Assembly: GCA_017503575.1 (NCBI GenBank)
Contig: JAFVSV010000019.1
Span: 1-60,089 of the forward strand
DNA from: Alistipes sp.
Lineage (GTDB): Bacteria; Bacteroidota; Bacteroidia; Bacteroidales; Rikenellaceae
Length of the DNA: 60,089 bases
Direction of reading: 5' to 3'
A program made the translations under genes and the position numbers. This document shows positions 5,156-49,735 of the stretch, one piece after another. Every line of letters begins with the position of its first letter. The first letter of the stretch is position 1. The notes beneath the pieces are model-generated. The model was not told the DNA's origin, made no database searches, and saw only the letters and a list, made by a program, of their open reading frames with translations.

Positions 5156-5401
5156 ATGATTATTACATTTAACGAGTTGCGCCGCATTAAGGATAAGTTG
5201 CCCAGTGGCAGCTCGCAGCGCATTGCAGATGAGTTGGGAATTGACGTAGAGACAGTACGCAACTATTTTGGCGGCAAGCACTTTGAAGCAAAGGCTGGTG
5301 CGGGCATTCATATCGAGCAGGGTCCTGATGGCGGTGTTGTAACTCTTGATGACACAACCATATTTGACGCAGCGATGCGTATCCTCAACGAGCAAAAATA
5401 G
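5156..5401 (+). CDS. Small helix-turn-helix DNA-binding protein
   Basis: This 81-residue protein has an N-terminal helix-turn-helix pattern (about 5-40): ITFNELRRIKDKLPSGSS, then RIADELGIDVETVRNYFGG. The basic recognition helix is followed by a Gly-rich, beta-like region (HIEQGPDGGVV) and a C-terminal helix. It matches a small DNA-binding family that I recall as widespread in Bacteroidetes without a known regulon. It is monocistronic and ends just before a strong terminator. Codon use and composition match neighbouring core genes. A regulator or nucleoid role is inference. Confidence 0.8.
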   Translation: MIITFNELRRIKDKLPSGSSQRIADELGIDVETVRNYFGGKHFEAKAGAGIHIEQGPDGGVVTLDDTTIFDAAMRILNEQK

Positions 5402-5563: not shown

Positions 5564-5576
5564 CAAGAGCGTTAAC

Positions 5577-6111
5577 CCAAGGTCACTTACTATTTGGGAT
5601 GTGCGGAGAATGCCCCTTATCACAGCAAATCAATTTTTGATTAGAAGGCTGCAGATGTGGTGCATCGCAAAAGAAGAGGCCTCGGGATAGTACACGAAGT
5701 ACAGCCTGCGACTTAACTCCTGACCTAATTTGTTGTCAGAAGGTAGTAGATGCAACGCTCGGCAAAAAAGATGCGGATGGGCTGTACTTGGCGTACTGCT
5801 CAATCGCATCTATTTTTTGTTAGCGGCAGCAGATGCTGCCTTATCACAACTAATTTGTTGTCAGAAGGTAGTAGATGCAACGCTCGGCAAAAAAAATGCG
5901 GATAGGCTGTACTATTACGTACTGCCTATTCGCATTTATTTTTGTTAGCGGCAGCAGATGCTGCCTTATCACAACAAATCAATTTTTGATTAGAAGGCTG
6001 CAGATGTGGTGCATCGCAAAAGAAGAGGCCTCGGGATAGTACACGAAGTACAGCCCGAGGTCACTTACTTTCTGGGATGTGCCGCAGATGCGGTCATATA
6101 ATCAAAAATTA
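5577..6111. repeat. Array of composite hairpin elements (four units plus a fragment)
   Basis: This interval holds no gene. A right-end fragment (5577-5630) is followed by a truncated type-A unit (about 5631-5706), two tandem type-B units (5726-5852 and 5851-5979) and a complete type-A unit (5981-6111). The two type-A units share about 75 identical bases at their left ends. Type-B units start with TTTGTTGTCAGAAGG and end with CCTTATCACAACAAA, an imperfect inverted repeat. Each unit has a long central palindrome and arms with small hairpins around an AGAT loop. The right edge of the last unit runs into the TAA stop of the leftward gene at 6109. Related elements lie at 36160-36287 and 48390-48519. 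Confidence 0.85.
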
Positions 6112-7416
6112 CTTGGAGGTCATTATTTTAAGTATCATCGCATCAGTATGCGTCATCGCATCACGACCGATGTCGGTAAGGTTGCGTATTGAGCGGTCTA
6201 CATCGTCGTCGATGATGCCCTCAACAGACTTAACACAACGGTTGCTCATCGCCATAAGTGCAGAGACAACAGCCGTAGATACGCCTGATGCGCACTTCAT
6301 GGCACACGAGGGCTTTGCGCCATCACATATCATACCTGTGAGGTTGGCAATCATATTCTTAACAGCCACAGTAACCTCCTCATAGCCACCGCCCATAAGG
6401 TAGGTGATACCACACGATGAGCCTGTCGCTGCAACCACGCAGCCACATAATGCCGATAGGCGGCCGAGGCTCTGCTTGATATATATCACGGTGAGGTGGC
6501 TGAGAATAAGAGCACGCACCATCTGCTCGTCCGAGGCCTTTGCCTGCTCGGCATATACCACAACGGGAACTGTCGAGGTGAGGCCCTGATTACCACTACC
6601 CGAGTTACTCATAACGGGTATCATGGCGCCTGCCATACGCGCATCGCACGCTGCAGTGGTCATGCCCACAATCTGGCAATGTAGCGTGTCGCCCATGATG
6701 TTACGCTCCGACTCCGAGCGGAAGAGACGACCTATGGCGTGGCCATAGTTACCCTTGAGCGACTCGTATGCAGCGTTCATATTTAGGCGGCGTGCCTCGA
6801 GGATAAACTGTAACTCGTCGAGAGGCGCTGTCATGGCAAAGTCCCACACCTTGCGCAGGGTGAGCACGGGGTCGGTATCTGTTGCTGTGGCTGCCGCGCC
6901 CTCGGTCTGTGCACCGCCATCGAGCGACATAAGCACCTCGCCGTTGCGCGACACATGTACGAAGCGAGTATGACCACCCGAGATTATCGCCACGGCACGA
7001 TCATCACCTGCCGACACCTCTATTTCTATGTATAGCTTCTCGGTGATATTCTCCTTGAGCGACACAGCGATACGCTTCTCGTCAATCATGCGACATCCCT
7101 CCTTAACAGCCTCGGCATCACCATCCTTGAGCACCTCGAGTTCATACTCCGATTTACCGACAATAGCGCCGAGCGCCATGGCGATAGGGAGACCCGTCAT
7201 GCCTGTGCCTGGGATACCCACACCCATAGCGTTCTTAAGTACGTTGGCACTCAAGCGCGCCTCGATACGCTCGGGGCGACGACCTAACGCCTCGGTAGCC
7301 TTGGCGACACACAATGCAACAGCAATAGGCTCGGTACAGCCTATGGCTGGGATAATCTCGCGATTCATGAGGGCGATAATCTCCTTACGCTCCTCGGCGG
7401 TAAATGGACAGTTCAT
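6109..7416 (-). CDS. CyuA/UPF0597-family L-cysteine desulfidase or L-serine dehydratase-like enzyme
   Basis: This 435-residue cytoplasmic protein matches the CyuA (YhaM) family. Characterised members are iron-sulfur enzymes that split L-cysteine into pyruvate, ammonia and sulfide; the fold is related to the L-serine dehydratase alpha chain. Supporting segments are REIIPAIGCTEPIAVALCVA near the N-terminus, MSNSGSGNQGLTST in the middle, and cysteine-rich stretches near the C-terminus (LCGCVVAATGSSCG, ICDGAKPSCAMKC) suited to cluster binding. Length is normal for the family. It is transcribed alone; a TATCTTCG sequence at about 7493-7500 could be its -7 box. Its TAA stop is the edge of a hairpin element. 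Substrate (Cys or Ser) cannot be decided from sequence. Confidence 0.85.
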   Translation of the reverse strand: MNCPFTAEERKEIIALMNREIIPAIGCTEPIAVALCVAKATEALGRRPERIEARLSANVLKNAMGVGIPGTGMTGLPIAMALGAIVGKSEYELEVLKDGDAEAVKEGCRMIDEKRIAVSLKENITEKLYIEIEVSAGDDRAVAIISGGHTRFVHVSRNGEVLMSLDGGAQTEGAAATATDTDPVLTLRKVWDFAMTAPLDELQFILEARRLNMNAAYESLKGNYGHAIGRLFRSESERNIMGDTLHCQIVGMTTAACDARMAGAMIPVMSNSGSGNQGLTSTVPVVVYAEQAKASDEQMVRALILSHLTVIYIKQSLGRLSALCGCVVAATGSSCGITYLMGGGYEEVTVAVKNMIANLTGMICDGAKPSCAMKCASGVSTAVVSALMAMSNRCVKSVEGIIDDDVDRSIRNLTDIGRDAMTHTDAMILKIMTSK

Positions 7417-36091: not shown

Positions 36092-36287
36092 CCGGAGTGC
36101 ATGTGAGCATTTCAACGACAAGTCCAACGCCGAAGATACGCCTTTATCATCACTAAATCATTTTATCGTCAGAAAGGCATAGATTTGGTGGTGGGTCGCA
36201 GTCGTTGAAAGCGGAGCATACTGTGTGTATGTGAGCATTTCAACGACAAGCCCAACGCCGAAGATGTGCCTTTATCACGATAAAATT
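36092..36287. repeat. Composite hairpin element at the dnaN stop, plus a right-half copy
   Basis: A complete unit spans 36160-36287 (128 bp). The left end is ATTTTATCGTCAGAAAGG and the right end CCTTTATCACGATAAAAT, and the centre is a long palindrome (AGTCGTTGAAA...TTTCAACGACA). The right end includes bases of the dnaN TAA (36286-36288). Before it, 36104-36152 repeats the right half with few changes. The interval 35961-36285 otherwise holds only a run of repeated ACTCAT and AACCCA words and no gene. Confidence 0.85.
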
Positions 36288-37413
36288 AGGCGTTTATCAT
36301 CATCGGCATCAACAACATCAACACCTCTGTCGCACGCTTATCGTCGTATACTGGCTTGAAGACGCCTGCGCGTGTTGAGTCAGCGAGCTCTACGACAACG
36401 GTTGGGGTGTCGATGTTAGAGAGTATCTCAACAAGGAATGTAGACTTGAAGCCGATGGTAACGGGACTACCCTCATAGCTACAAGTTAGAGTCTCGTTAG
36501 CCGATACCGAGAAGTCGATATCCTGTGCAGCGAGGCTAATCTTGTTACCAGCGATATCCATGCGGATGAGGTTTGTCGTTGGATTAGAACATACAGCCAC
36601 ACGACGGATACCGTTAAGGAGTGCTACGCGGTCAACAAGCACCTTATTGGGGTTTGCAGTAGGTATTACAGCGTTGTAGTTAGGATAGTTACCCTCGATA
36701 AGACGACATACGAGCTTGTGGTTCGAGAGGTCGAAGATAACGTTCTTAGCATCGAAGGTCACGCGTACAGGAGCACTCTCCTTAACGAGCATACCCTTGA
36801 GGAGGTTAGCGGGCTTCTTGGGCAGGATGAACGATGCTGCGAAGTCAACATCTACGCACTCCGCCATTGAGCGCACGAGTTTATGGGCATCAGTAGCCAC
36901 GAAGGTCACCTTGCCCTCCTCGAAGTTGAAGTATACACCATTCATCACAGGGCGAAGCTCATCATCGGCAGTGGCGAAGATTGTCTTGTTGATGCCCGCT
37001 ATGAGCATGTCTACGTCCATGAGTATCTCCTTGCACTCGGCACCCACGGTGGGCACTGCAGGGTAGCTCACAGCACTTGCGCCAGGGATTGAGAGCGAGC
37101 CACTTGCCCAGCGAACCTTAATCTCCCATGTGGTATCGTTAACATCGAACTCGAGGGGCATCTCTGGGAACTCCTTGAGTGAGTCGAGCATAAGCTTCGC
37201 AGGCGCCGCGATGACACCCTCACGCTCCACACTCTCCACGGTAAGGTGGCCTATGAGTGTTGTCTCAAGGTCCGATGTGGTTACGGTAAGCTCGTTATTC
37301 TTGAGCTCGAGGAGGAAGTAGTCGAGGATAGGAAGGGTATTCTTGTTGCTGATAACCTTTCCTGTTGTTGCGAGTAGCGACAGCAATGCTGAGCTCGATA
37401 CGGTAAATTTCAT
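36286..37413 (-). CDS. dnaN: DNA polymerase III beta sliding clamp
   Basis: This 375-residue three-domain clamp encircles DNA and tethers the replicase. It begins MKFTVSSSALLSLLATTGKVI and has the domain patterns NTLPILDYFLLEL, FATADDELRPVMNGVYF and ATDAHKLVRS. It also has the conserved C-terminal YLLMPM-like end (VLMLLMPMMI), which contributes to the peptide-binding cleft. Length is typical. It lies 43 bases after udp, so co-transcription is likely. Its stop codon is supplied by the edge of a hairpin element. Confidence 0.96.
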   Translation of the reverse strand: MKFTVSSSALLSLLATTGKVISNKNTLPILDYFLLELKNNELTVTTSDLETTLIGHLTVESVEREGVIAAPAKLMLDSLKEFPEMPLEFDVNDTTWEIKVRWASGSLSIPGASAVSYPAVPTVGAECKEILMDVDMLIAGINKTIFATADDELRPVMNGVYFNFEEGKVTFVATDAHKLVRSMAECVDVDFAASFILPKKPANLLKGMLVKESAPVRVTFDAKNVIFDLSNHKLVCRLIEGNYPNYNAVIPTANPNKVLVDRVALLNGIRRVAVCSNPTTNLIRMDIAGNKISLAAQDIDFSVSANETLTCSYEGSPVTIGFKSTFLVEILSNIDTPTVVVELADSTRAGVFKPVYDDKRATEVLMLLMPMMINA

Positions 37414-48344: not shown

Positions 48345-48520
48345 GCAAGCAAAGCTTCAAAGATGGCCCCTTATCATAGCAAAGAACCCATTTTGTTGTC
48401 AGAAGGGTGGCATATTTGGCCTCGATTAAGATGCTGGGCTGGATGGGACATACTGATGGTATTTCCCATTCAGCACAGCGATTGAGAGGTCGAAGATGAC
48501 CCCTTATCACAACAAAATTA
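48345..48520. repeat. Composite hairpin element at the pepT stop, plus a right-end fragment
   Basis: A complete unit spans 48390-48519 (130 bp). The left end is ATTTTGTTGTCAGAAGG and the right end CCTTATCACAACAAAAT. The central palindrome runs from GCTGGGCTGGATGGG to CCCATTCAGCACAGC. It adjoins the pepT TAA (48518-48520). A right-end fragment precedes it (48345-48385, GATGGCCCCTTATCA). I see nothing else in 48236-48517 beyond the short repeat at 48250. Confidence 0.85.
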
Positions 48521-49735
48521 CTCTGCCCAGATACGCGCAAGGTTAATAATAGTATTCATCGCGCGGTTCATAGTCGTAAGCGACGCATACTCGTAACGAC
48601 CATGGAAGTTCATGCCACCAGTAAAGAGGTTGGGGCAGGGAAGACCCATGAATGAGAGACGCGAGCCGTCGGTACCACCACGGATAGGACGCACAAGAGG
48701 CTTCACTCCCGCCTCAATCATGGCACGACGGGCCTTCTCTATAACCTGTGGATGTGGCTCCACCATCTTGCGCATGTTGTAGTACTGGTCCTTGAGGGTG
48801 AGCGTCAGCACCTTCTCGCCATACTTACGCTGGAGGAAGTTGACGACATCCCACATAAGCTGCTTCTTAAGCTCGAACTTATCGCTGTCGTGGTCTCGGA
48901 TGATATAGTTGATCTCCGCCTCCTCGACGCTACCCTTGATGCCTACGCAGTGGAAGAAGCCCTCGTAGTTCTCAGTGTACTGTGGGCGCTCCGATGCTGG
49001 GAGAAGAGTATTGAGCTCTGTGGCGATATCTATGGCGTTAATCATCTTGTTCTTCGCCATGCCTGGGTGCACATTGCGGCCAGCGATGGTAATCTTGGCG
49101 CCTGCTGCGTTGAAGTTCTCATACTCGAGCTCGCCCTCCATACCACCATCCATGGTATATGCGAAGTCAGCACCAAACTTCTTGACATCGAAGTAGTCGA
49201 CGCCACGACCAATCTCCTCATCGGGAGTGAAGCCCACACGAATCTTACCGTGCTCAACCTCGGGATGTGCCACGAGCCACTGCATGGCTGTGACGATCTC
49301 GGCAACGCCAGCCTTATCGTCAGCACCAAGGAGTGTTGTGCCATCGGTATGGATGAGTGTGTGTCCCTTGAAGAACGACAACTCGGGGAACTCCTCGACC
49401 TTGAGCCATACGTTGTTGCCGAGCATGATATCGCGGCCGTCGTACTTGTCGATGATGTGAGGCTTGATGTTTGCGCCCGACATGTCGGGTGATGTGTCGA
49501 CATGCGAGATGAAGCCTATGGTAGGCACACTCTCCTTGCCCTTGGTGGCGGGGAGTGTAGCCATGACGTAGCCATGCTCATCCATGGTCACATCCTCGAG
49601 ACCTATTGTTTGTAGCTCCTCCTTGAGGTAGTTGAGTAGCACGAGCTGCTTCTCGGTCGAGGGGAATGTCTCACTCGACTCATTCGACTGCGTGTCGAAC
49701 GACACATACTTCAAAAATCTATCTTTTAAGTCCAT
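48518..49735 (-). CDS. pepT: Tripeptidase T
   Basis: This 405-residue M20-family peptidase removes N-terminal residues from tripeptides. It shows FISHVDTSPDMSG (His and Asp), LLGADDKAGVAEI (bridging Asp), FTPDEEIGRGVDYFD (Glu pair), VHPGMAKNKMINA, and RPIRGGTDGSRLSFMGLPCPNLFTGG with the final ligand His just after it. It is cytoplasmic with normal length. Its TAA is the edge of a hairpin element. Confidence 0.96.
   Translation of the reverse strand: MDLKDRFLKYVSFDTQSNESSETFPSTEKQLVLLNYLKEELQTIGLEDVTMDEHGYVMATLPATKGKESVPTIGFISHVDTSPDMSGANIKPHIIDKYDGRDIMLGNNVWLKVEEFPELSFFKGHTLIHTDGTTLLGADDKAGVAEIVTAMQWLVAHPEVEHGKIRVGFTPDEEIGRGVDYFDVKKFGADFAYTMDGGMEGELEYENFNAAGAKITIAGRNVHPGMAKNKMINAIDIATELNTLLPASERPQYTENYEGFFHCVGIKGSVEEAEINYIIRDHDSDKFELKKQLMWDVVNFLQRKYGEKVLTLTLKDQYYNMRKMVEPHPQVIEKARRAMIEAGVKPLVRPIRGGTDGSRLSFMGLPCPNLFTGGMNFHGRYEYASLTTMNRAMNTIINLARIWAE

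Follow-up and report, generated by a model that had tools for sequence, protein, structure and literature searches.

Interspersed palindromes at the ends of genes are already known. The attC sites lie behind a stop codon and carry the terminal boxes RYYYAAC and GTTRRRY. Each forms an imperfect hairpin with conserved unpaired bases, of which the bottom strand is recognized (excerpt of PMC3053210). REPs lie mostly within 20 bp of the 3' ends of the flanking open reading frames (ORFs), and a TAG stop is frequently contributed by their GTAG end (excerpt of PMC3733652). The ERIC and RU-1 127-bp repeats are enterobacterial MITEs which are palindromic and intergenic, with some located in coding ends (excerpt of PMC2759123), while the DNA uptake sequences of Neisseria and Haemophilus are a genome-wide repeat linked to terminators (excerpt of PMC1852404).

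Here, we describe a family of imperfect hairpins, present in a 60,089-nucleotide stretch of Alistipes sp. DNA (the window) and in other members of the genus, which has a covarying structure and docks at stop codons. Like REPs, its members are interspersed palindromes near gene 3' ends (119 of 166 right ends at 0 to 5 nt), but they measure about 125 nt versus 20 to 40 for REPs, lack GTAG/CGTC ends, and are accompanied by no Y1 transposase (0/61 genomes); moreover, descriptions of the REP location concern other phyla and do not include a single oriented end placed at 0 to 5 nt. Since neither of the two defining REP features tested, namely, a RAYT/Y1 transposase and a tagged 20- to 40-bp palindrome, was found, the family is a distinct variety of gene-end palindrome and not a member of the REPs. 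With attC sites it shares the imperfect hairpin, the conserved unpaired bases, one constrained strand, and the position next to a stop, whereas its ends are different, its neighbors are housekeeping genes, and an integron integrase is over cut-off in 0/61 genomes. ERIC and RU-1 resemble it in length, palindromic nature, and intergenic location, and are set apart, by description rather than by sequence, through their other host phylum and the one-direction stop docking observed here. Uptake-sequence terminators consist of short words in inverted pairs; the family has in common with them a genome-wide repeat tied to terminators but differs in being a long structured unit copied in its entirety. 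Judged by titles and the beginnings of abstracts in PMC, which covers mostly open-access literature, no publication on such a repeat in Alistipes was found.

Hairpin units in the window

The preliminary description reported a four-unit array at 5577..6111, the last unit of which adjoins the stop of the leftward gene at 6109. According to our analysis, units are in place in this interval and the TTA at 6109-6111 does adjoin the last of them, whereas the number of units had to be revised, as the array comprises three whole units plus fragments and no clean fourth (Table 1). All units and fragments point the same way. No Rfam family reached its gathering score in the window, the best weak match being mir-26 with 29.2 of 57 bits, in agreement with the earlier statement that the units belong to no named family, and the overall reading of composite hairpins docked at stops is likewise supported.

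Table 1. Hairpin units and adjoining genes in the window
Feature	Position	Strand	Evidence
Right-part remnant of A-type unit	5576..5614	+	5576-5613 82% identical to 6054-6091
B right end and left part of A unit, copied	5615..5706	+	99% identical to 5964-6055 over 92 nt
Type B hairpin unit, complete	5729..5853	+	Model R1, 122.1 bits; fold z -5.7
Type B hairpin unit, complete	5854..5978	+	Model R1, 132.2 bits; fold z -7.6
Type A hairpin unit, complete, docked at stop	5983..6108	+	Model R1, 91.4 bits
SDH_alpha family gene, stop TTA 6109-6111 (on +) adjoins array	6109..7416	-	ORF; Pfam PF03313, E 9.1e-66
Hairpin unit, complete, 1 nt from dnaN stop	36162..36284	+	Model R1, 84.5 bits; sequence
dnaN, DNA polymerase III beta subunit	36286..37413	-	TIGR00663 over cut-off
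Hairpin unit, complete, 1 nt from pepT stop	48392..48516	+	Model R1, 103.4 bits; sequence
pepT, peptidase T	48518..49735	-	TIGR01882 over cut-off

Two other stretches of the window were noted. The region 5156-5401, containing an 81-amino-acid ORF, has no Pfam or NCBIfam match and is 88% identical in genome G055. The segment 14148-18357 (about 4.2 kb) is unmatched in the syntenic stretch of the same genome (L197, 7269-7520), and its ORFs include one of 403 amino acids that appears kinase-like by its sequence alone.

Size and distribution of the family

The units of the array are members of a family of imperfect hairpins, mostly 118 to 131 nt long, which extends far beyond one array. Copies proved abundant in the assembly and in related genomes. 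The draft genome to which the window belongs (1.82 Mb and 78% complete) yielded 36 matches to a 253-base query. With a covariance model of 25 units and E<=0.01, it yielded 131 matches over the two strands, which were condensed to at least 89 places; this is a lower bound, with 150 of 566 candidates scored. Within the genus, 38/61 genomes matched at E<=1e-8 and 23/61 had no match at that cut, and at least 58 matches were counted in 11 of the 38 matching genomes. In more distant members, the model search retrieved units of the same plan, mostly with a different outer stem.

A blastn search with one B unit matched 7 of 41 genomes, that is, 7 of the 25 belonging to the genus and 0 of the 16 others. 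The type B pattern occurred in at least 80 stretches of a named collection, and all those listed are titled as MAGs of Alistipes sp. or of a Rikenellaceae bacterium, the majority, by title, from ruminant hindgut. With regard to a phage, plasmid, or viral origin, one type B pattern searched in viral contigs and one 571-base query searched in phages and plasmids gave no match.

Docking at stop codons

Clustering at gene 3' ends was examined in 166 right-most units flanked by 330 nt or more and in the left ends of 137 left-most units. The right end followed the stop of an open frame (80 codons or longer) at a distance of 0 to 5 nt in 119/166 cases and of -13 to 5 nt in 131/166, while the corresponding values for left ends were 1/137 and 8/137. 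Random positions at the same loci gave 35/3320 (1.05%) and positions 6 to 80 nt upstream of the right ends gave 48/3320, and the excess at stops is thus nearly 70-fold over random positions. When only the longest converging frame was considered, 106/166 right ends were still at 0 to 5 nt. Several of the 35 misses are, by reading, copies within a second repeat (see below) or copies beside a unit missed by the pattern. The docked end is nearly always the same one of the unit's two ends, and the same arrangement is seen in distant relatives, where 22 of 25 places in nine genomes have a frame of at least 80 codons ending 0 to 6 nt before the element (11/14 in the six most distant genomes).

The stops at 158 distinct gene ends were TAA in 129 cases, TGA in 15, and TAG in 14; of the TGA stops, 10 lie within the element. 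A fixed TTA/TAA target was rejected since TAG and TGA also serve. A repeat that finds stops is odd, as DNA alone barely marks them, yet docking occurs in most cases at 0 to 5 nt and all three stops are usable.

One explanation is a MITE that is purely selfish and whose target is weak, for example, TA or AA; it would be moved by another transposase, have no 3'-end function, and accumulate at stops because these are the least harmful sites in compact intergenic DNA. In line with this, T, A, and A are favored in the upstream flank near stops (0.62, 0.82, and 0.67 at -3 to -1; 117 units), and TA can be read on both sides of some copies in G074 and G055, others being without it. Furthermore, the G074 copy L235 must have landed in a coding end, since the frame of its gene, by reading, extends past the insertion point in 5/5 relatives. 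We nonetheless deem this explanation unlikely, given that docking is almost absent from left ends and random positions and that TAG and TGA serve too, as illustrated by 19 gene ends of G003 with 9 TAA, 7 TAG, and 3 TGA. A target other than the stop should also scatter copies through intergenic DNA, a spread that was not seen, and the IS630/mariner domain DDE_3 (PF13358) was over cut-off in 0/61 genomes, with weak matches below it in 3/61.

Structure of the hairpin and strand preference

Structural features were counted in 108 nonredundant units derived from 236. From the outside in, the plan consists of an 8-bp stem, a 3x3 internal loop, more pairs, the AGATs, a variable stem, and a TAC..GTA tip, with consensus ends TTTGTTGTCAGAAGG and CCTTATCACAACAAA bounding a unit of about 125 nt; GTTGT at the start and ACAAC at the end are present on both strands, inside a T/A run. 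The conservation of the CAG/ATC internal loop is real. Its left side reads CAG in 59/108 units and TAG in 30/108, its right side reads ATC in 87/108, and position 9 is unpaired in 96/108, position 10 paired in 98/108, and position 11 unpaired in 98/108. Where the outer stem has changed (n = 73), positions 9 and 11 remain unpaired in 62 and 63 units, respectively, and 533/584 outer-stem cells pair, which bears out the earlier claim that mismatch and pairing are both conserved even with an altered stem. The small hairpin around an AGAT-like loop in each arm did not hold up: among AGAT-bearing arms, 13/68 right and 2/65 left ones have a local stem of 4 bp or more. AGAT is present in both arms of 53/108 units, and in the folds of B units the two AGATs face each other.

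Covariation was assessed on 25 sequences. In these, 95.5% of cells are paired versus 75.2% in shuffled alignments, and 28/38 pairs are altered on both sides versus 16.7 after shuffling, with 0/500 shuffles reaching either value; slid controls gave 35 to 49%, a comparison biased in favor of the structure because the latter was taken from the same alignment. Both B units of the window form more stable folds than shuffled DNA does, on the + strand (z of -5.7 and -7.6) as well as on the other (-3.3 and -6.6). We call + the strand that reads CAG in the left arm; it is the template strand of the docked gene and the better-folding strand in 101/108 units (mean of -61.9 versus -49.1 kcal/mol), with 218 GT cells versus 111 AC cells in the 32 pairs common to the folds of both strands.

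This strand asymmetry is what would be expected of a folded-strand recombination site like the integron attC, at which a recombinase would swap or add hairpins at the stem base via the + strand. Such a site would also account for a conserved internal loop with unlike sides, for the single direction of the units within each array, and for docking behind stops, where attC is found too; in addition, tyrosine-recombinase-like matches below the IntI cut-off are present in 61/61 genomes, so that a Xer-type or other enzyme may be involved. However, the integron integrase (TIGR02249) is over cut-off in 0/61 genomes, the ends GTTGT..ACAAC are the reverse of the attC boxes, and the neighbors are housekeeping genes, such as dnaN, and not cassettes. 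Array polarity is weak as well, the stop-side unit outscoring the most distal one in 33/51 arrays (p 0.049), with the window array showing the opposite; a CRISPR-like polarity was discarded on the same count. A site of this kind is in our judgment improbable, and we give equally little credence to its variant without an integron, in which an attC-like, strand-specific hairpin exchange would attach and swap folded-strand modules directly behind the stops of ordinary chromosomal genes. If true, such an exchange would offer a living parallel to the unsolved step in which genes gain the hairpin that turns them into cassettes.

Turnover at orthologous gene ends

When we inspected orthologous gene ends, both filled and element-free ones were identified in sister species, as the preliminary description had suggested looking for. 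Behind the stop of the SDH_alpha gene, the element is present at 7 of 30 orthologous loci, the window included; all 7 are among the 14 nearest loci, the other 7 of which are without it. For dnaN, a model match was obtained in 8 of 12 relatives (the model was run on L219 without a match and was not run on L217, L220, and L221), and reading revealed degenerate element-like sequence in L217 and L219 and nothing in L220 and L221. For pepT, 5 of 8 relatives carry the element by reading. Ten gene ends of G074 were also searched in five relatives, eight of them being traceable at 38 sites. By reading, the gene at L239 has an element in 5/5 relatives, with differing sequences, while the element of the L245 gene is present in G074 and in 0/5 relatives.

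At orthologous stops, where the genes' proteins are 94% identical, elements have a median identity of 0.72 (108 cross-genome pairs) versus 0.69 among 400 pairs drawn at random (p 0.0004). Of the orthologous pairs, 68 could be tested for closeness within the genome, and in 60 of these the element is nearer to another one of its own genome. Nevertheless, 25/108 orthologous-stop pairs reach an identity of at least 0.80, and some elements are therefore common by descent. Different element sequences occupy the same stop in related species, as for dnaN, and identical copies occur at several gene ends: in G074, five identical 124-nt units lie in five places and six further units are 1 to 4 differences off. 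It follows that positions are kept, that the sequences at them differ, and that further places are gained.

Persistence of position could alternatively reflect old 3'-end structures that are fixed and now immobile, the sequences of which are replaced by gene conversion between copies. The 22 orthologous gene groups bearing elements in at least two genomes fit this, although three of them were chosen on purpose, which biases the count, and so does the L239 gene with its element in all five relatives. The distribution is patchy, however, as exemplified by the L245 element of G074, which all five relatives lack; 92 of 158 gene ends in the sample are singletons and 23/61 genomes are without a match at the cut used, and we regard fixed structures as very unlikely. 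The many filled and empty orthologous gene ends in related species offer a means of watching gain and replacement, and they make it testable how hairpins become joined to the ends of genes, a question that integron cassettes and REP-tagged genes raise as well.

Search for a mobilizing enzyme

The RAYT/Y1 transposase (PF01797, E<=0.001) was found in 0/61 genomes, while 5 of 14 named genomes used as a control matched. RAYT/Y1, integron integrase, and IS630-type enzymes were accordingly dropped as partners, none being over cut-off in the 61 genomes. The reverse transcriptase domain RVT_1 was identified in 11 of 26 genomes tested; a reverse transcriptase or group II intron was excluded as partner since the domain is missing from seven element-rich genomes (G074, G071, G016, G066, G050, G053, and G020; 80 to 94% complete). 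An autonomous copy was sought as the same ends around a long open frame, and among the loci examined four pattern pairs were found, none of them convincing. The searches for these enzyme families and for an autonomous copy thus yielded no mobilizer.

Relation to transcription termination

The units were examined for a GC-rich hairpin followed by a T run, with the threshold set at the 95th percentile of shuffles, which fixes the shuffled value at 6/108. Under these conditions, 42/108 units pass on the mRNA strand and 47/108 on the other. In the 110 nt that follow the stop, 18/34 sites empty by pattern contain a terminator-like hairpin, versus 3/67 coding controls. Seven of the 34 are, by eye, element variants or relics (L086, L217, L219, L228, L295, L305, and L326), and since none of these is among the 18 passing, 18/27 is the better figure. 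Element-bearing sites pass the same test, applied to their first 128 nt, in 13/33 cases and fail it in 20/33. For pepT, the three element-free relatives show no terminator in this test.

In the 52/108 units where it could be placed, the inner stem starts at a median of 37 nt (32 to 45) from the stop-side end. The 8 nt that follow it contain on average 3.0 T versus about 2.2 expected by composition, with at least 4 T in 24/52. L310 and L305 look, by reading, like relics in which the outer arms have decayed and the inner hairpin is retained. The Escherichia coli terminator tR2 is repressed when located a few bp behind a stop and fluctuates near its maximum beyond 30 bp (excerpt of PMC4824070). 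Taking this distance effect together with the 37-nt offset of the inner stem, we interpret the unit as a 3'-end module that is copied and would bring its own spacer.

Our tentative preference, held with somewhat less than even confidence, is for a mobile, REP/MITE-like hairpin, non-autonomous and about 125 nt long, which is found in part of the genus Alistipes and occupies the terminator position. The hairpin would be copied to host gene ends with the same end nearly always towards the gene, and it would come to occupy the site at which an ordinary terminator is often present in relatives without the element. Serving the mRNA as a 3'-end module, it would act as a transcription terminator, often usable both ways, and its outer stem might serve as a spacer that puts the inner hairpin about 37 nt past the stop, beyond the terminating ribosome. 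Least securely, copying might proceed via the folded + strand, i.e., the template strand of the neighboring gene, through a host enzyme or another one. We go no further in this preference because the terminator test fails in most units (66/108) and because the better-folding strand is, in 101/108 units, not the mRNA strand, which a role as mRNA terminator alone would not require. The element may help to end transcription at host gene ends, and if the elements are copied terminators, they would constitute a mobile part that rewrites the ends of genes across a portion of a bacterial genus.

Associated repeats and flanking tails

L070 (1-420) and L160 (near 1791) contain a tandem repeat, about 115 nt long, whose end, GGGTTCGAGTCCCGTCTACCGCTC, resembles a tRNA, and in both a hairpin unit lies directly behind that end. 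ARAGORN calls no tRNA at the tRNA-like end of L070, and a tRNA end as docking site was rejected for this reason.

The tail GGTYGYGGTGCTRA follows the far end in 20/144 far flanks versus 0/288 control stretches; it is confined to a subset and was abandoned as a general feature. Recurrent far-side tails were observed in G000, G055, G074, G024, and G016, where 69/172 far flanks fall into clusters of at least two, some of them duplicate loci, and the copied stretch may therefore exceed the hairpin.

A second, unrelated repeat, reading gaggctgaataaaaagtctattttgtcgtt ... cgccctcaaaatgctcatttacg in the mRNA sense, was encountered in L015, L016, L017, L024, L120, L127, L166, L173, and L174. Most of its copies have a hairpin unit in the middle and one lacks it. 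L017 harbors both forms, with the hairpin at 1476-1660 and without it at 472-596, that is, a nested element and an empty site.
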